This document shows, in pieces, positions 4,958 through 53,820 of a stretch of DNA of 64,000 bases. The notes beneath the pieces are model-generated. The model saw only the letters and a list, made by a program, of their open reading frames with translations, was not told where the DNA came from and did not search any database. Within the stretch, counting starts at the first letter, position 1. Each line of letters begins with the position of its first letter. The stretch is taken from contig JAIEUA010000006.1 of NCBI GenBank assembly GCA_019744815.1, forward strand, positions 62,001 to 126,000, in the 5' to 3' direction. The position numbers and the translations under genes were made by a program. The DNA comes from Phycisphaerales bacterium. Lineage in GTDB: Bacteria > Planctomycetota > Phycisphaerae > Phycisphaerales > UBA1924.

Positions 4958-6133
4958 ATGGCGAACATGGCAACTTCAGCGACGAAAAGCGGCAAGGGTG
5001 GTGGTGGCAAGTCGGCGGGCGCGGCGACGGATCCGTTTTTGCCGCGGCAGCGGAAGGTGCGGGAGGCGATGCTGGGGCATGAGCTGACGCATCTCTTGGT
5101 GAGCAGCCCGCTGGATGTGGGGTATCTGACGGGGTTCACGGGTGGTGATTCGTACTTGCTGATCGGTCCGCGGCAGCCGGGGGCGCCGGTGACGGCGGCG
5201 TTGATCAGCGACTTCCGGTATCAGGAAGAGCTGCAGCCGTTCGCGGACAAGCTGGAGATCATCATCCGCAAGCGCTCGATGGGCGAGGCGGTGGCGGATC
5301 TCTTGTCGGGCCCGGGCGTGGAGCGGGTGGGCATTCAGGCCGACATCATGACGGTGGCGGAGCGGGATGCGCTCGCGAAGAAGATCGGCACCAAGAAGGT
5401 GGTGTCGACGGTGGGGCTGATCAACAAGCTGCGCTCGGTGAAGGATGCGCACGAGATCGATCTGATCCGGCGGGCGGTGAAGATTCAGGAAGCGGCGTTG
5501 CTCGAGGTGCTGCCGACGATTGAGGCGGGGCAGACCGAGCAGCAGATCGCGGCGCGGCTGGAGAGCGAGATGAAGGCGCGGGGCTCGGCGGTGCCGAGCT
5601 TCGACACGATCGTGGGTGCGAAGGGGAACAGCGCGCTGCCGCACTATCGCGCGGGGGAGATGAAGGTCGCGAACAACAACGTGCTGTTGATCGACTGGGG
5701 CGCGACGTACAAGGGCTATCACTCGGATATGACGCGGACGTTTGCCCTGGGCAAGTGGCCGAAGAAGATGGCGGAGATTTACGAGATCGTGCTGGAGGCG
5801 CACAAGCTGGCGGCGGCGGCGTTATGCGCCGGCAAGAGCAGCGCGGAGATCGACCGGGTCGCTCGCGATCACATCGCGGCGGCGGGGTATGGTGAGAACT
5901 TCGGGCACAGTCTGGGGCACGGGATCGGGCTGCAGATCCATGAAGAGCCGCGGCTGTCGCACATGCTGGCGGGGGTGAAGCTGCAGGCGGGGCAGGTGGT
6001 GACGATCGAGCCGGGGATCTATCTGCCGGGCGTGGGCGGCGTGCGGCTGGAGAACGATTACGTGGTCACCGAGACGGGCAGCGAGTGCCTCGCGACGTTG
6101 CCGATGACGCTGGAGTGGGCGACGTTGGGGTAG
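4958..6133 (+). CDS. M24 family metallopeptidase (Xaa-Pro aminopeptidase-like)
   Basis: LIDWGATYKGYHSDMTRTFALG, GHSLGHGIGLQIHEEP, VVTIEPGIYLPGVGGVRLENDYVVT. Confidence 0.92.
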   Translation: MANMATSATKSGKGGGGKSAGAATDPFLPRQRKVREAMLGHELTHLLVSSPLDVGYLTGFTGGDSYLLIGPRQPGAPVTAALISDFRYQEELQPFADKLEIIIRKRSMGEAVADLLSGPGVERVGIQADIMTVAERDALAKKIGTKKVVSTVGLINKLRSVKDAHEIDLIRRAVKIQEAALLEVLPTIEAGQTEQQIAARLESEMKARGSAVPSFDTIVGAKGNSALPHYRAGEMKVANNNVLLIDWGATYKGYHSDMTRTFALGKWPKKMAEIYEIVLEAHKLAAAALCAGKSSAEIDRVARDHIAAAGYGENFGHSLGHGIGLQIHEEPRLSHMLAGVKLQAGQVVTIEPGIYLPGVGGVRLENDYVVTETGSECLATLPMTLEWATLG

Positions 6134-6186
6134 GAGGGGAGGAGGGGAGGAGGGGAGGAGGGGGGCAGGGGAGCAGGGGAGCAGGG
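6132..6186. repeat. G-rich short tandem repeat (GGAGGGGA / GGGGAGCA) R5
   Basis: ggaggggaggaggggaggaggggaggagggggcaggggagcaggggagcaggg. Related tracts at 10931, 11353 and 53779. Confidence 0.85.
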
Positions 6187-6211: not shown

Positions 6212-7156
6212 TCAGAATGAGAAGTTCGCGTTGGCGTCGGTGGAGCCGAGGGTGCTGGCGGCGGCGTTGCCGCTGACGGCGGTGGTGCCTGGCGCGGTGC
6301 GGTCGATGATGGGTCCGAAGATGTTGTTGGCGACGATGGACCAGTTGAGGGTGTTGCCGCTGCAGGTGTTCTTGATGATGATGTTGCCGGCCGCGGCGAT
6401 GTCGATTCCGCGGTCGGCCCTGATGCAGTTGTTGGATTCAACGCGGCTGTCGGTGCCGAGGATGATGATGCCGGCGCCGTCGCCGATTTTGCCGTTCAGA
6501 TTGCAGTTGTTGTTGGAGATGATGCAGGCGTTGGTGGCCTCGATGCCGTTGACGGCGTTCTCGGAGGAGACGCAGCGGTCGACGGTGCTGCCCTGTTCGA
6601 CACGGATGCCGGAGGAGTTGTTGATGGTCACGCAATCGCGGATGACGGTGTTGGTGCCGCCGCGGATGCCGTAGCCGGTGTTGTCGGTGGATCGGACGTC
6701 GGAGATGACGGAGCCGCGGGTGACGCCGACATCGATGCCGCTGCCGCTCCAGCCTCGTATGGAGCCGTTGTGGATGCGGACGAAGGCGCTGGCGAGGACG
6801 AAGATGCCGTTGGACCCGGCGGAGTCGGGGTTGCCGACGAGGTCGAAGCCGTTGAGGTCGACGGTCACGCCGCCGCTGACAACGAGGATGCCGTGCTTTC
6901 CGGGGGCGGCGACGATGTTGGTGGCGAGGTAGTACGAGCCGGGACGGTTGATGACGAAGGTGGCGGTGTCGCCGGGCGGCGTGTTGATCTCGTTGATGGC
7001 GATGCGGGGCTCGACCTCGGCGAGGGGCTTGGCGGTGGGCGCGACGGGGCCGGCGGGCGGGTTGAGGGGGCCGGCGAGGGCGTGCGTTACGACGATGGCG
7101 CCGGTTGCGACGAGGGATGCGAGCGCGAGGATGCGGAGTGATGATGAACGCGGCAT
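6212..7156 (-). CDS. Secreted right-handed parallel beta-helix repeat protein
   Basis: Signal peptide; GPLNPPAGPVAPTAKPLAEVEPRIAIN N-motif; NGFDLVG/GIRG/SGI helix coils; C-terminal GPIIDRTAPGTTAVSGNAAASTLGSTDANANFSF. Confidence 0.8.
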   Translation of the reverse strand: MPRSSSLRILALASLVATGAIVVTHALAGPLNPPAGPVAPTAKPLAEVEPRIAINEINTPPGDTATFVINRPGSYYLATNIVAAPGKHGILVVSGGVTVDLNGFDLVGNPDSAGSNGIFVLASAFVRIHNGSIRGWSGSGIDVGVTRGSVISDVRSTDNTGYGIRGGTNTVIRDCVTINNSSGIRVEQGSTVDRCVSSENAVNGIEATNACIISNNNCNLNGKIGDGAGIIILGTDSRVESNNCIRADRGIDIAAAGNIIIKNTCSGNTLNWSIVANNIFGPIIDRTAPGTTAVSGNAAASTLGSTDANANFSF

Positions 7157-7329
7157 GGTGGCGGCTCCGATCGGGGCGACACCATCAGCCTACCGAGACG
7201 GGCGGTATGTTCAACAAAAAATGGCTTGGAATCAGGGACTCAAGCACGGACTCCGCGAGGGTCGCGCGTGGCGGGGTGGGGGTGTGGGGCGGGGTGGGCG
7301 GACGCGTTGCAGGAGCTGCACTGGGGGAA

Positions 7330-8508
7330 TCAATGGGTGTAGTTCGCGTTGGCGTCGGTGGAGCCGAGGGAGCTTGGGGCGGAGTCGCCGTTGATGGCGG
7401 CGGAGGCTGGAGCGGTGCGGTTGAGGATTGGGCCGACGACGTTGTTGGCGGCGATGAGCCAGTTGACGGAGGTGTTGCCGCTGGCGGAGTTTCGGACGAT
7501 GACGCTGCCGGAACCGATGACGTGGAGGCCGCGGCCGTTCTTGTGCATGATGTTGCCTTCGATGCGGCAGTTGTTGGTGGAGGAGACGAAGATGCCGTCG
7601 CTGGTGTTGCTGTGGCAGGTGTTGCCGCGGACGAGGGAGTCGTTGAGGACGACGATGCCGTCGGCGCCGTTGTCGCTGGCGATGCAGTCGATGATGGTGG
7701 TGCCCTGCTGGCCGTTGATGCCGTCGGCGCCGTTGTTGGAGGCGGAGCAGTTTTTGATGAGGCCGTCGCCGAAGAGAATGATGCCGGTGCCGAGGTTGTT
7801 GTACGCGGAGGAGTCGGTGATGTTGACGCCGTTGCTGCCGTAGAGGCCGTAGGTGCCGTTCTCGAAGGCGGTGCATTGGGAGATGGTGCCGCCGGCGTTG
7901 ACCTGGATGCCCTGTTGGCCGTTGTCGCGTGCGACGCAGCCGATGGCGGAGGCGACGCCGGTGATGCCGTCGAGGGTGTTGAGGGTGACGTGGCAGTTGC
8001 GGACGATGGCGCCGTTGGCGCGGATGCCGTTGCCGGCGTTGTTGGTGGCGGAGAGATCTTCGAGGATGCAGCTTCCGGTGGTGCTGTTGAAAAGATTGAT
8101 GCCGTCTTGGCCCCAGGCGGCGACGGTGCCGTTGCGGATGATGATGCTGTTGCGTGAGGAGATGTCGTTGACGATGCCGTCGAGCGAGCCGGGGACACCG
8201 ATGACGGCAAAGCCGTTGAGATCGATGGTGACGCGGCTGGCGGCGATCTCGATGCCGCTCTTAGCGGCGACGCCGTTGATGTTGCCGGTGAGGTAGTAGG
8301 AGCCGGACTGGGTGATGCGGTAGAGGCTGTTGTTGTCGCCGAGGGTGTTGGCGTCGTTGATGGCGATGCGGGGCTCGGGTCCGGGCGTGGGGGCGACGGG
8401 TCCGGCGGGGGGGTTGAGCGGGCCGGCGAGCGCGGTGGTGATGAACGGTGCGATGCACGCGCCGAGCGCGACGCGAGCGATGAAACGGTGTGAGAACGAA
8501 CGCGGCAT
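7330..8508 (-). CDS. Secreted right-handed parallel beta-helix repeat protein (paralog 2)
   Basis: Same N-terminal GPLNPPAGPVAPT and C-terminal NWLIAANNVVGPILNRTAPASAAINGDSAPSSLGSTDANANYTH signatures. Confidence 0.8.
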   Translation of the reverse strand: MPRSFSHRFIARVALGACIAPFITTALAGPLNPPAGPVAPTPGPEPRIAINDANTLGDNNSLYRITQSGSYYLTGNINGVAAKSGIEIAASRVTIDLNGFAVIGVPGSLDGIVNDISSRNSIIIRNGTVAAWGQDGINLFNSTTGSCILEDLSATNNAGNGIRANGAIVRNCHVTLNTLDGITGVASAIGCVARDNGQQGIQVNAGGTISQCTAFENGTYGLYGSNGVNITDSSAYNNLGTGIILFGDGLIKNCSASNNGADGINGQQGTTIIDCIASDNGADGIVVLNDSLVRGNTCHSNTSDGIFVSSTNNCRIEGNIMHKNGRGLHVIGSGSVIVRNSASGNTSVNWLIAANNVVGPILNRTAPASAAINGDSAPSSLGSTDANANYTH

Positions 8509-8673
8509 GGGAGCGACTCCTCTTGGGGCGACGCTCCCAGCCTACCGCCAATGGGCGAATCTTCAATGGAGATAAGCGCCAGAATCATGGAGTTCTGGGG
8601 GCTGCGTGCGGTTGGCGGGCGCGGCATTGCCTTTTTGGTGGCAAGGCGCCTCGGAGGCAGACTCGGCTGTGGG

Positions 8674-10122
8674 TCAGTTGGTGAAGTTGGCGTTGGGGTC
8701 GGTCGAACCAAGTGCCGCGGCGGCGGCGTTGCCATTGACGGCGGGAGCCGCCGCGGCGGAGCGGTCGATGATCGGGCCGTAGGAGTTGTTGGCGGCGATG
8801 GACCAGTTGGTGGTGGTGTTTCCAAAGCAGCTGTTTCGGACGATGGTGGTGCGGCTGCCGAGGACGCGGATGCCGTAGTCGTTGTCCTTGCAGATGTTGT
8901 CTTCGATACGGTTGGCGAGGTCTTCGGTGCATATGCCGGCGCCGGGGTCGGTGCCCTGGCCGTTGCCGCTGCAGCTGTTGCCTCGGATCGTATTTCCCTG
9001 GAAGGTGACATAGATGCCGTGCTTGAAGTTGAAGCTGGAGACGCAATCCACGATGAGCGTGCCGCCGGTGCTCACAATTCCATTGCCTCTGTTGGAGGTT
9101 GCGGTGCACTTGGAAATGCTGTTCGAAAGGCCGGAGAGAACGAAGCCTTCGAGGCTGTTCCCGTTCGCAACGCATTCGCTCATTTGGGAAGCTGACGCGA
9201 TGAAACCGGTGAAGCCGTTGTTGCTGGCGGTGCAATTCTGGTACACACTGAAGCTGGCGCCGCTGAAGCCCCATTTGGTGTTGTTGGCGGCGGTGCAGCC
9301 GATCAGCGTTGAACCGGCGTTGGTGCCGATCCCGGCCGCGGCGTTGCTCGTCGCGGTGCAGTCGGTGAGCGAGGCGGAGCTGCCCGCCGAGATGCCGTAG
9401 CCGCCGCAGCTTTCCGCGGTGCAGCGATTGAGCACGCAGAAAGACCCGCATTCAATGCCGGTGTCGGTGGTGCCCTTGGCTGTGCAATCAACGAGGATTG
9501 AGTGATTGCCGGTCTTGATGCCGACGGGGCCGGTCGTGAGGGCGAGGCAGTTGCTGATCTGCGAGTTCACCCCGGTCTGGAATCCGCCACCGGAGTTGAA
9601 CTGGGCCTTGCAGTCGGCGATCGAGCCGGTGTCGATGACGAAGCCCTTGCCGCTGTTGCGGGCGGTCTCGACTTTCTCGATGGTGACGCTTTCGGCACCG
9701 ACGAGGTCGACGCCGTTGCCGCCGAACGACATGACGAAGCCGTTGCGGAGGACGACGCGGGGCTTGAAGGGGCCGTCGACGTCGATGCCGTTGAGGGTGC
9801 CTTCGGCGCCGGTGACAGAGAAGCCGTTGAGGTCGATGGTGACGAGGCCGTCGGTGTTGAGGTCGATCTGGATGCCGTGCTCGATGGTGCCGACGCTGAC
9901 GTTGGCGGCGAGGTAGTACGAGCCTGGCTGAGTGATGCGGTAGAAGCTGTTGGCGTCGCCGGGGGTGTTGATAGCGTTGATGGCGATGCGGGGCTCGATC
10001 TCGGCAAGCGGCTTGGCGGTGGGGGCGACGGGCCCGGCGGGCGGGTTGAGCGGACCGGCGAACGCGATGGTTGCGAGCATCGCCGCGAGCGCGGCGATGG
10101 CAAGGCGGAACGGATGTGGCAC
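8674..10122 (-). CDS. Secreted right-handed parallel beta-helix repeat protein (paralog 3)
   Basis: Same end signatures (NWSIAANNSYGPIIDRSAAAAPAVNGNAAAAALGSTDPNANFTN). Likely GTG start VPHPFRLAIAALAAML. Confidence 0.8.
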   Translation of the reverse strand: MPHPFRLAIAALAAMLATIAFAGPLNPPAGPVAPTAKPLAEIEPRIAINAINTPGDANSFYRITQPGSYYLAANVSVGTIEHGIQIDLNTDGLVTIDLNGFSVTGAEGTLNGIDVDGPFKPRVVLRNGFVMSFGGNGVDLVGAESVTIEKVETARNSGKGFVIDTGSIADCKAQFNSGGGFQTGVNSQISNCLALTTGPVGIKTGNHSILVDCTAKGTTDTGIECGSFCVLNRCTAESCGGYGISAGSSASLTDCTATSNAAAGIGTNAGSTLIGCTAANNTKWGFSGASFSVYQNCTASNNGFTGFIASASQMSECVANGNSLEGFVLSGLSNSISKCTATSNRGNGIVSTGGTLIVDCVSSFNFKHGIYVTFQGNTIRGNSCSGNGQGTDPGAGICTEDLANRIEDNICKDNDYGIRVLGSRTTIVRNSCFGNTTTNWSIAANNSYGPIIDRSAAAAPAVNGNAAAAALGSTDPNANFTN

Positions 10123-10424
10123 GGCGACTTCTCTCCTTTTCAACGAGGAGTGCAACGTACCGCGCGGGGTGATTCGGGCAAAGCAGAAAATCGGGCTCAC
10201 CTGCGGGCTCGTGCGCGCAGAACGTCCTTATCGGGCAGGCCGCAGCGAAAGGCGGAGGGGCGCAGTGTCGGCGACCGAGTCGCGGTGAGTGGAACATCGT
10301 GTTCATGATCTGGTCGGGCGTGCCTTCGGGGTGTTTTGTTCATAGGATGAGGGGCCACGGAGGCGGGACGGGAAGAGGCGTTCGCAACGATCCCTGACTG
10401 AGAGCGACGACTGAGAGCTACACC

Positions 10425-10931
10425 ATGATCGATCCGAGCAAGCTGAAGGACCTTGTCAAGCTGATGGTCGAGAACGACCTGACGGAGTTGGACCTGCAGG
10501 ACGAAAAGGAAACCGTGACGATCCGCCGCGGGCCGCAGGGCGGCGTGGTGAATCACTCGCCGGTGTATTACGGCGGCGGTGGCGGTGGTGGTGCTCCGGC
10601 GGCGTTTGCGCCGGCCCCAATGGCGGCGCCTGCTGCGGCTCCTGCCGCGGGCGGCGCGGCTCCTGCTCCCAAGGCCGCCGACTCCGACGCGGGCCTGATC
10701 GCGATCGAATCGCCCATGGTGGGCACGTTCTACTCCGCGGCGAACCCCGACAGCCCGCCGTTCGCGGCGGCCGGCGCGAAGATCACGCCCAGCACGGTCG
10801 TCTGCCTGATCGAGGCCATGAAGGTCTTCAACGAGATCAAGGCCGAGAAGACGGGGACGATCGAGAAGGTGCTGGTGAAGAACGGGGATGCCGTGGAATT
10901 TGGGCAGAAGCTGTTCTTGGTGAGGCCCTGA
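10425..10931 (+). CDS. accB: Acetyl-CoA carboxylase biotin carboxyl carrier protein
   Basis: Biotinyl motif [40 protein letters not shown] and Ala/Pro linker; followed by accC. Confidence 0.95.
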
Positions 10932-10932
10932 G

Positions 10933-10972
10933 AAGGGGAGCAGGGGAGGAGGGGAGCAGCGGAGCAGGGAAG
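10933..10972 (+). repeat. Left inverted arm flanking the four-helix-bundle gene
   Basis: AAGGGGAGCAGGGGAGGAGGGGAGCAGCGGAGCAGGGAAGG; near reverse complement of 11353-11397. Confidence 0.85.
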
Positions 10973-10974
10973 GA

Positions 10975-11352
10975 ATGGCCGTGGGCGTTCCGATTCGCAA
11001 TCACCGCGACCTCATCGCCTGGCAGCGTGCCATGGAGCTTGCGGAGCGGGTGTATGCGGTGGCCACGGAACTTCCGGAATCGGAACGATTCTCCCTCTCG
11101 CAGCAGCTTCGTCGTGCGGCGGTGTCGGTCCCGAGCAACATCGCGGAAGGACACGGACGGCACTCGCGGAAGGACTACGTGAAGTTCCTGCGGATCGCCC
11201 GCGGCTCCTTGGCTGAACTCTCGACGCAGCTCGAACTGGCGACGCGACTCAAGCTTGTTCGCAACGACCCTCAAACCGCTCAACTCATCGAAGAGACCGA
11301 TCGCATTCTAAACGCCCTCATCCGGAGCCTTGTTGTTCGCAGCAACGACTAG
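10975..11352 (+). CDS. Four helix bundle protein (23S rRNA intervening-sequence protein family)
   Basis: DLIAWQRAMELAERVYAVATELP...QQLRRAAVSVPSNIAEGHGR...FLRIARGSLAELSTQLELA is the hallmark of this family. Confidence 0.92.
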   Translation: MAVGVPIRNHRDLIAWQRAMELAERVYAVATELPESERFSLSQQLRRAAVSVPSNIAEGHGRHSRKDYVKFLRIARGSLAELSTQLELATRLKLVRNDPQTAQLIEETDRILNALIRSLVVRSND

Positions 11353-11397
11353 TGTCTTTCCCCTGCTTTCCTGCTCCCCTCCTCCCCTGCCCCCCTC
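11353..11397 (-). repeat. Right inverted arm flanking the four-helix-bundle gene
   Basis: TCTTTCCCCTGCTTTCCTGCTCCCCTCCTCCCCTGCCCCCCTC; contains the perfect 19-nt reverse complement of CAGGGGAGGAGGGGAGCAG in the left arm. Confidence 0.85.
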
Positions 11398-12738
11398 ATG
11401 TTTAAACGCATCCTCATCGCCAACCGTGGAGAAATCGCTCTCCGCATCCTGCGTGCCTGTCGCGAGCTCGGTGTCGAGGCGGTCTGTGTCTACTCGACCG
11501 CTGACAAGGACGCGCCGTATCTGAAGCTTGCCGATCGGGCGATCTGCATCGGGCCCGGGCCGGCCAAGGAGTCCTACCTCAACATCGCGCGGCTGCTCTC
11601 GGCGGCCGAGATCGCGGATGCGGATGCGATCCATCCGGGGTACGGGTTCCTGTCCGAGCGTCCCGACTTCTCGCAGGCGTGCCGCGATTGCAAGATCGAG
11701 TTCATTGGCCCATCGCCCGAGTCGATGCAGGCCCTGGGCGACAAGGTCGAGTGCAAGCGCACGGCCAAGGCCAACGGTGTGCCTGTGTTCCCGGGCTCCG
11801 ACGGCGCGCTCGAGGATGAGAACGAGGCGGTGAAGGTCGCCAACGAGATCGGGTATCCGGTCATCATCAAGGCGTCTGCCGGCGGCGGCGGGCGCGGGAT
11901 GAAGATCTGCCGCGACGAGGCGACGCTGCGCCAGCAGCTCCGCACCGCGAGCCAGGAGGCCCAGGCGGCGTTCGGCAACGGCGCGGTCTTCATTGAGAAG
12001 TTCCTCGAGAAGGCCCGGCACGTCGAATTGCAGATGCTGGGCGACAAGCACGGCAACGCGATCTACCTGTGGGAGCGCGACTGCTCGATGCAGCGGCGGC
12101 ACCAGAAGGTGATCGAGGAGGCGCCGGCGCCGAACATCGATCGCGAGAAGCTGAAGAAGGTCGCGGAGTCGTGCCGCAAGCTGTTGCAGAGCGTGAAGTA
12201 CGCGGGTGCGGCGACGTGCGAGTTCCTGCTCGACGCCAAGGGCGACTTCTACATGCTCGAGGTGAACACCCGCGTGCAGGTGGAGCACCCGGTGACGGAG
12301 CTGATCACCGGCGTCGACGTCGTGAAGATGTCGATCAAGATCGCGTCGGGCGAGAAGATCCCGTACAAGCAGGAAGAGATCAAGATCAACGGGCACGCGG
12401 TGGAGTGCCGCATCTGTGCCGAGGACCCGGCGATGGGCTTCCGCCCGAGCGCGGGCAAGATCACGACGTGGGAGCCGCCGGGTGGACCGGGCGTGCGGAT
12501 GGACACGCACGTGGTGGCGGGGTACGTGGTGCCGCCGAACTACGACAGCATGATCGGGAAGCTGATCGTGCACGCGGAGACGCGGGATCTGGCGCTCGAC
12601 CGCGCCGTGCGGGCGTTGAAGGAGTTCACCGTCGGCCCGATCAAGACGACGATCCCGCTGCATATTCAGCTGTGCAACAACGCGGACTTCCGCAAGGGCG
12701 GTGTGGATATCCACTACCTGGAGCGGCTGCTGAAGTAG
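11398..12738 (+). CDS. accC: Acetyl-CoA carboxylase biotin carboxylase subunit
   Basis: MFKRILIANRGEIALRILRACRELG, IHPGYGFLSE, KASAGGGGRGMK, EVNTRVQVEHPVTE. Confidence 0.97.
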   Translation: MFKRILIANRGEIALRILRACRELGVEAVCVYSTADKDAPYLKLADRAICIGPGPAKESYLNIARLLSAAEIADADAIHPGYGFLSERPDFSQACRDCKIEFIGPSPESMQALGDKVECKRTAKANGVPVFPGSDGALEDENEAVKVANEIGYPVIIKASAGGGGRGMKICRDEATLRQQLRTASQEAQAAFGNGAVFIEKFLEKARHVELQMLGDKHGNAIYLWERDCSMQRRHQKVIEEAPAPNIDREKLKKVAESCRKLLQSVKYAGAATCEFLLDAKGDFYMLEVNTRVQVEHPVTELITGVDVVKMSIKIASGEKIPYKQEEIKINGHAVECRICAEDPAMGFRPSAGKITTWEPPGGPGVRMDTHVVAGYVVPPNYDSMIGKLIVHAETRDLALDRAVRALKEFTVGPIKTTIPLHIQLCNNADFRKGGVDIHYLERLLK

Positions 12739-52355: not shown

Positions 52356-52589
52356 ATGGCACGCCTCGTCCGCCACGAACAAACCGCACCCATCAAGATC
52401 GACCCCGCCACCTGGCCCCGCGACGAGCAGGGGAACCTCAAGGTCCTCTCGATCTGCGCCTGCGGCATCTCCTCGAAGTTCCCGTTCTGCGACGGCGCCC
52501 ACAAGGGCTGCAAAGCCGAAGAGCCCGGGAAGGTCTATCGCTACGACCCGGTGACCAAGGCGATCCTCGACGCGTCTCAGGAAGGGTGA
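52356..52589 (+). CDS. CDGSH iron-sulfur domain protein
   Basis: LSICACGISSKFPFCDGAHKGC matches the CDGSH C-X-C-X8-C-D-G-x-H pattern. Confidence 0.9.
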   Translation: MARLVRHEQTAPIKIDPATWPRDEQGNLKVLSICACGISSKFPFCDGAHKGCKAEEPGKVYRYDPVTKAILDASQEG

Positions 52590-52680
52590 GAGACGAAGAG
52601 ACGAAGAGACGGAGAGACGGAGAGACGGAGAGACGGAGAGACGGAGAGACGAAGAGACGAAGAGAAGGAGAGCGGAGAGG
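52590..52680. repeat. 8-bp tandem repeat (AGACGGAG/AGACGAAG)n
   Basis: gagacgaagagacgaagagacggagagacggagagacggag... read directly. Confidence 0.95.
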
Positions 52681-53778: not shown

Positions 53779-53820
53779 TTCCCCTGCTCCCCTGCTCCCC
53801 TGCTCCCCTCTTCCCCTCCG
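53779..53820. repeat. C-rich member of R5 short tandem repeat
   Basis: ttcccctgctcccctgctcccctgctcccctcttcccctcc. Confidence 0.85.

Follow-up and report, generated by a model that had tools for sequence, protein, structure and literature searches.

A four-helix-bundle gene between inverted octamer arrays in the accB-accC spacer of a Phycisphaerales bacterium, probably an instance of a small, widespread insertion element

The stretch of DNA analysed here (the window) comprises 64,000 nucleotides from a Phycisphaerales bacterium (GenBank assembly GCA_019744815.1, contig JAIEUA010000006.1, positions 62,001 to 126,000), and its accB-accC spacer is filled by a gene of the 23S rRNA-intervening sequence protein family (S23/IVP, PF05635; hereafter IVP) set between two inverted arrays of a short tandem unit. 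This feature probably represents a small insertion element of wide occurrence (0.4-0.5 kb), named here the IVP element, which would spread together with a protein that reads the array. The architecture of gene and arrays recurs over phyla far beyond controls, most elements occupy co-oriented operon junctions directly past a stop codon, at sites that are either empty or filled in related genomes, and the arrays are also present without the gene, in one case in frame within mutS. The architecture and generality of the element are well supported and its mobility is supported by the presence/absence pattern and by the mutS case, while recognition of the array by its IVP protein is our working hypothesis.

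Gene and arms in the accB-accC spacer

The inserted unit and the two genes that flank it are as follows.

10932..11397, + strand: whole inserted unit, 466 nt, occupying the entire accB-accC spacer (from spacer length and sequence)
10934..10969, + strand: left arm, purine-rich, made of tandem GGGGAGCA octamers
10975..11352, + strand: four-helix-bundle gene, PF05635 / TIGR02436, 125 aa (PF05635 1.3e-36, TIGR02436 5.3e-36)
11361..11396, + strand: right arm, array in reverse complement, running up to the start codon of accC
10425..10931, + strand: accB, upstream flanking gene (Biotin_lipoyl 4e-18)
11398..12738, + strand: accC, downstream flanking gene (biotin carboxylase domains)

A single open reading frame (ORF; 10975-11352), in the same direction as accB and accC, fills the spacer, with scores far above the cut-offs of PF05635 (125.5 bits vs 33.8) and of TIGR02436, the "four helix bundle protein" family (123.2 vs 24). 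An earlier examination made from the letters alone (the sequence-only reading) had placed the end of accB at 10931, the coding sequence at 10975-11352 and the start of accC at 11398, with the spacer wholly taken up, and had assigned the gene to this family, all of which holds (PF05635 at 1.3e-36). It had also seen a perfect 19-nt inverted match, which is indeed included in the arms; their real extent is longer, 36 nt each with 89% complementarity and 391 nt between them, and their nature as octamer arrays had been missed. For the arm scores we compared the 200 nt before with the 200 nt after the IVP domain, using mispaired flanks and shifted positions as controls. The arm alignment score at accB-accC is 52, and scores of at least 40 appear in 0.4% of the mispaired flanks and 0.5% of the positional controls. 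The fold that the sequence-only reading had called for was computed as well, and the arms pair in the minimum-energy RNA structure (-230 kcal/mol, shuffles -211 +/- 6.2, z = -3.06).

Recurrence of the architecture across bacteria

Arm scores of at least 30 were reached by 71% of 83 PF05635 genes from the class of the source (mispaired 1.4%, positional 2.9%) and by 63% of 82 such genes from a multi-phylum set (mispaired 1.1%, positional 0.3%), percentages that are not unbiased frequencies since both sets favour genes matching the profile or query well. The second set spans Acidobacteria, Nitrospirae, Cyanobacteria, Bacteroidota, Chloroflexi, Proteobacteria, Clostridia, Verrucomicrobia, candidate phyla and an archaeon. 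PF05635 itself was found in 78% of the sampled genomes of the source's class. The consensus unit has a period of 7 in 79 loci and of 8 in 19, and AG is present in 83% of consensus units, where composition predicts 60%. The purine-rich strand lies on the gene's 5' arm in 89 loci vs 18 with the opposite polarity, and the median array has five units per side, among arms preselected for strength.

Relatives of IVP are also encoded by 32 viral contigs of IMG/VR (L396-L427), 24 of them with inverted arms. Two candidate roles were tried and rejected, phage cargo because the window protein had no match in the phage collection (though the IMG/VR contigs carry relatives) and a defence system because there was no match in PADLOC. 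On three Nostoc plasmids (L350, L351 and L353) the IVP gene adjoins ISL3/IS204-type transposase sequence, which suggests that an IVP is able to ride on an insertion sequence (IS), and two plasmids of Nostoc PCC 7120 carry an identical IVP protein. A large CRISPR-discovery scan placed the 23S rRNA IVP among novel CRISPR-associated genes (PMC10910872); tandem heptamer arrays taken for CRISPR arrays could be the reason for that listing.

Other family members and dispersed arrays in the same genome

The source genome has three PF05635 genes, counting the accB-accC copy, and all three stand between inverted 7-8-nt arrays with a different unit in each. The arms of the second are 30 nt long and 100% complementary (unit GGGGTGA) and those of the third 47 nt and 91% complementary, with GGCATCGA-like units, so that the search for similar flanks elsewhere, proposed by the sequence-only reading, succeeds for both remaining family members. 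All three arm units are also scattered through the genome apart from any PF05635 gene. Counted genome-wide, with the same pattern read backwards as control for each unit, GGGGAGCAGGGGAG gives 151 matches vs 17 reversed, GGGGTGAGGGGTGA 60 vs 2 and GGCATCRAGGCATC 59 vs 0. Such bare arrays, inverted or single, and short hairpins often start directly 3' of stop codons. Two bare arrays of the accB-accC octamer family lie in the window.

6128..6186, + strand: bare array, octamer family GGGGAGGA/GGGGAGCA, without a four-helix-bundle gene
53780..53818, - strand: bare array, GGGGAGCA family, without a four-helix-bundle gene

At 52589-52665 a further array consists of nine to ten octamers (AGAGACGG/AGAGACGA). 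None of the genome's three IVPs uses this unit, but it makes up the arms of two IVPs elsewhere, one at accB-accC in another genus (L103) and one from Planctomycetota (L213). Finally, a bare GGGGAGCA hairpin lies in frame inside the mutS ORF (L027, G000:C2:165109-165191), between FVPND and ITGPNMAGKS. It is missing from the relatives that were read, and the loop that contains it has 41 codons here vs 17-29 in most relatives, where the loop is readable; three relatives have longer loops of 33, 34 and 57 codons, one of them (L429) with a different heptamer-like array.

Elsewhere in the window, three tandem minus-strand ORFs (6212-10200; 314, 392 and 508 aa) appear to encode paralogous secreted proteins with PLNPPAGPVAPT and IAIN motifs in common.

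Insertion sites and empty sites

Among 82 strongly armed elements, the left arm begins a median of 3 nt past the upstream ORF and the right arm stops a median of 16 nt short of the next one. Both neighbours are on the IVP strand in at least 50 of 76 cases, a lower bound since the crude ORF caller misplaces the known accC in several of them, and both are on the opposite strand in two. Host junctions identified by profile are nuoC-nuoD, sdhA-sdhB, pheS-pheT and dcd-nrdJ, of which nuoC-nuoD and sdhA-sdhB are each occupied in several genera with arms of different sequence.

The accB-accC spacer could be resolved in 67 genomes of the family. Ten contain an IVP gene, with arms that differ among the copies, eight further spacers have an inverted repeat without a gene (score 28 or more), several of these repeats being clearly of heptamer type (L080, L088, L096), and the remainder have neither. 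In most sister genomes the spacer measures 2-120 nt and has no gene, and in one genome of the same genus it measures 91 nt, with a one-sided GGCACTA array and no IVP gene. The ten IVP copies belong to two IVP lineages, and their placement on the tree requires three or more changes of site along well-supported branches. Unoccupied sites, which the sequence-only reading had proposed to look for in sister genomes, do exist, and where conservation of the gene throughout the order would have spoken against that reading, only 10 of 67 sites are occupied.

A second junction gives a similar picture. In Bosea the nuoC-nuoD spacer (L305-L343) is 3-12 nt long in 21 genomes and carries an IVP element with shared GGCAGTC arms in three, and most of the others carry unrelated ORFs (a GFA-like protein or another small ORF) and not IVP. 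This junction is a hotspot for unrelated inserts. The ratio of nonsynonymous to synonymous substitutions (dN/dS) of IVP is about 0.1 in two Bosea pairs, so the protein is under selection there.

The arm unit follows the IVP lineage

Within one genome the IVPs differ in their units, while related IVPs in separate genomes have units in common. Thus AAGGCATCAAGGCA is shared by IVP arms in three genomes of the source's genus, and GCTGTTAGCTGTTGG-like arms flank IVPs in both Capnocytophaga and Winogradskyella. Mapped on the IVP tree, the period requires 11 changes vs a shuffled mean of 17.4, with 0 of 500 shuffles as low, and the more alike two IVP proteins are, the more alike their units tend to be (Mantel r 0.127, p 0.0005). 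The arm unit goes with the IVP lineage and not with the host. A universal code between unit and IVP was nevertheless rejected, the coupling being strong only among close IVPs and weak, and partly compositional, between phyla.

These patterns also bear on a reading in which the 7/8-nt arrays are independent dispersed repeats and the IVP genes sit within them or are spread when copies of the array undergo homologous recombination. The large excess of bare arrays over IVP genes would fit it, as would the presence in the window of at least one array family that has no matching IVP in the genome; however, it does not account for units that differ among the IVPs of one genome and agree among related IVPs of different genomes, for a period that follows the IVP tree, or for the fixed polarity of the arms relative to the gene, and we find it unlikely.

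Complementarity of the arms

Equally unlikely in our judgement is that the element acts as an intervening sequence (IVS) at the RNA level, with the arms forming a stem in the accB-accC transcript and an excision by RNase III, as in pre-23S rRNA, that uncouples or tunes accB and accC. The predicted stem (z -3.06), the orientation of the elements mostly with the operon, and an anatomy identical to that of the 23S IVS of Coxiella, in which RNase III cuts a 28-bp stem (PMC4990558), all point in this direction. Were the RNA stem the selected feature, mismatches between arms should favour G-U over A-C, but the transition mismatches of 108 loci divide into 91 G-U compatible and 89 of A-C type, and selection for a maintained stem was rejected on this null result. 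The unit sequence is moreover free except for period and AG, the arrays exist also singly or as bare short hairpins, and the gene is missing from most relatives. The idea of arms kept as an RNA stem, as the sequence-only reading would have it, is not supported by the same mismatch counts or by units that vary by locus and are present without the gene. Some arms match perfectly across heterogeneous units (34/34 in L039), suggesting that one arm was copied from the other; together with the missing G-U excess, this makes the complementarity seem a product of the DNA level. It looks as if it were later eroded by slippage and homogenisation, as in Bosea. For this reason a mobile element whose protein reads the repeat seems to us a better account than an RNA-processing device, although an RNA stem may still form in the transcript and be cut.

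The sequence-only reading had also inferred an IVS relocated into an mRNA. The IVS anatomy, the location in an mRNA, the empty sites and the armed relatives all stand; the relocation out of rRNA probably does not, as no 23S rRNA was detected in the flanks of the sampled IVP loci, and an origin from 23S rRNA was rejected. The direction is probably the reverse, with rRNA one landing site of many for the IVP element.

A proposed mobile element

In the IVP element as we define it, two inverted arrays bracket the S23/IVP gene, each with about five units of 7 or 8 nt (loosely YAG-N4/5), and the purine-rich strand is at the gene's 5' side. The element would spread as DNA, with an IVP homopentamer binding its own array, possibly one array unit per subunit. 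The two solved members of PF05635 (PDB 2GSC and 2RLD) have five chains each, and the Xanthomonas one of the two is reported to form a toroidal homopentamer (PMC4990558). No catalytic domain is recognisable in IVP, so movement would be performed by a recombinase or reverse transcriptase supplied in trans, and the bare arrays and hairpins would be gene-less derivatives. Insertions would persist where splitting of the transcript harms little, at operon junctions and, as the classical IVS, at the tips of rRNA helices.

The homology of IVP to Avd, the accessory protein of diversity-generating retroelements (DGR; phrog_3206 1e-7, bAvd 1e-5, NF033474 4.5e-6; PMC10053308), makes a reverse transcriptase in trans a possible mover. 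In its full form this becomes a retroelement-like movement, in which an Avd-type IVP would present the element RNA to a reverse transcriptase encoded elsewhere and the tandem units would come from cDNA slippage. The co-oriented insertions in transcribed junctions agree with such a process, but the Avd matches fall under the curated cut-offs, and we consider it rather improbable. A vertically inherited regulator of the acc operon, with the arms as its expression signals, is highly improbable and was rejected, since purifying selection on orthologous copies at another site (dN/dS about 0.1) and their persistence within a genus are outweighed by the absence of the gene from accB-accC in 57 of the 67 resolved genomes of the family, one of the same genus among them, by copies there from two IVP lineages with at least three label changes, by the same structure in other operons and by a sporadic distribution that contradicts any general account of this kind.

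Several results weigh against the mobile IVP element as well. We saw no transposition event, and the element revealed no transposase, reverse transcriptase or catalytic motif. Target-site duplication was not found in 82 loci, direct similarity outside the arms being near the mispaired-control level, so that a classical transposon with such duplication was rejected; an 8-nt AGGCGAAG repeat at the Bosea nuoC-nuoD junction is not general. Arms are undetectable in about 30% of IVP genes. Across phyla the coupling of IVP and unit is weak (r 0.10, composition alone 0.06), and a best-partner test of this coupling between phyla was null. In the Bosea arms, units homogenise in one arm without the other following, and the bare array at 52589-52665 has a unit with no resident IVP.

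A broader generalisation is plausible, if short of probable: a bacteria-wide mobile class in which a pentameric four-helix-bundle protein reads its cognate 7-8-nt array and drives spread into operon junctions, the rRNA IVSs and the dispersed heptamers of cyanobacteria, xanthomonads and others being special or derived cases. The IVP element may thus explain both ribosomal intervening sequences and bacterial heptamer repeats. We know of no function for PF05635 despite its occurrence in many phyla, and heptamer arrays have repeatedly been described in bacteria without an agent; the link between them gives both a testable job, the binding of a cognate array by the pentamer. Ribosomal intervening sequences become, in this view, one landing site among those of a general element, and core operons (acc, nuo, sdh, pheST) emerge as recurrent carriers of an extra cistron at subunit junctions. 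We found no paper joining heptamer arrays to this family in the open-access literature, subscription journals and most preprints being outside the scope of the search.

Comparison with known systems

The closest known system is the 23S rRNA IVS, which in Coxiella is 428-444 nt long, with a 28-bp stem and a terminal inverted repeat whose loop holds the S23/IVP ORF (PMC4990558). It shares with the IVP element a size of about 450 nt, the ORF family in the loop, a terminal inverted repeat of about 30 bp and sporadic occurrence, whereas the copy described here lies in a protein operon, accB-accC, and not in an rRNA gene, and its arms are tandem 7-8-nt arrays that are dispersed elsewhere too.

Two kinds of transposable system, RAYT/REPIN (repetitive extragenic palindromes, REP, and their associated tyrosine transposase) and IS with miniature inverted-repeat transposable elements (MITE), resemble it in having a gene between inverted repeats that are also dispersed without the gene. 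RAYT and IS, however, encode a transposase; in IVP, a four-helix bundle, no catalytic site is known. Compared with RAYT/REPIN, there is no Y1 (HUH) transposase and there are no REP palindromes, their place being taken by a PF05635 protein and 7-8-nt arrays; compared with IS/MITE, there is no target-site duplication found and the sole ORF filling the element is the four-helix bundle. The Avd protein of DGR has a homologous four-helix-bundle fold, yet the NF033474 score is 26.9 vs an equivalog cut-off of 80 bits, inverted arrays stand in place of template and variable repeats, and the immediate neighbours are accB and accC.

Heptamer repeats are known as the short tandemly repeated repetitive (STRR) sequences of cyanobacteria and as GGGAATC in Xanthomonas and GGGGA(C/T)T in Nostoc (PMC4692102), and as the TAACTGA repeats of Beggiatoaceae and others (PMC4679880). 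The text of these two papers yielded no connection to a protein family. As in STRR-type repeats, the tandem 7-8-nt units of the IVP element are dispersed in intergenic regions, and TCAGTTA-type units like those of Beggiatoaceae serve as IVP arms too (L058); what sets the arrays described here apart from the known heptamer repeats is that they bracket a gene.
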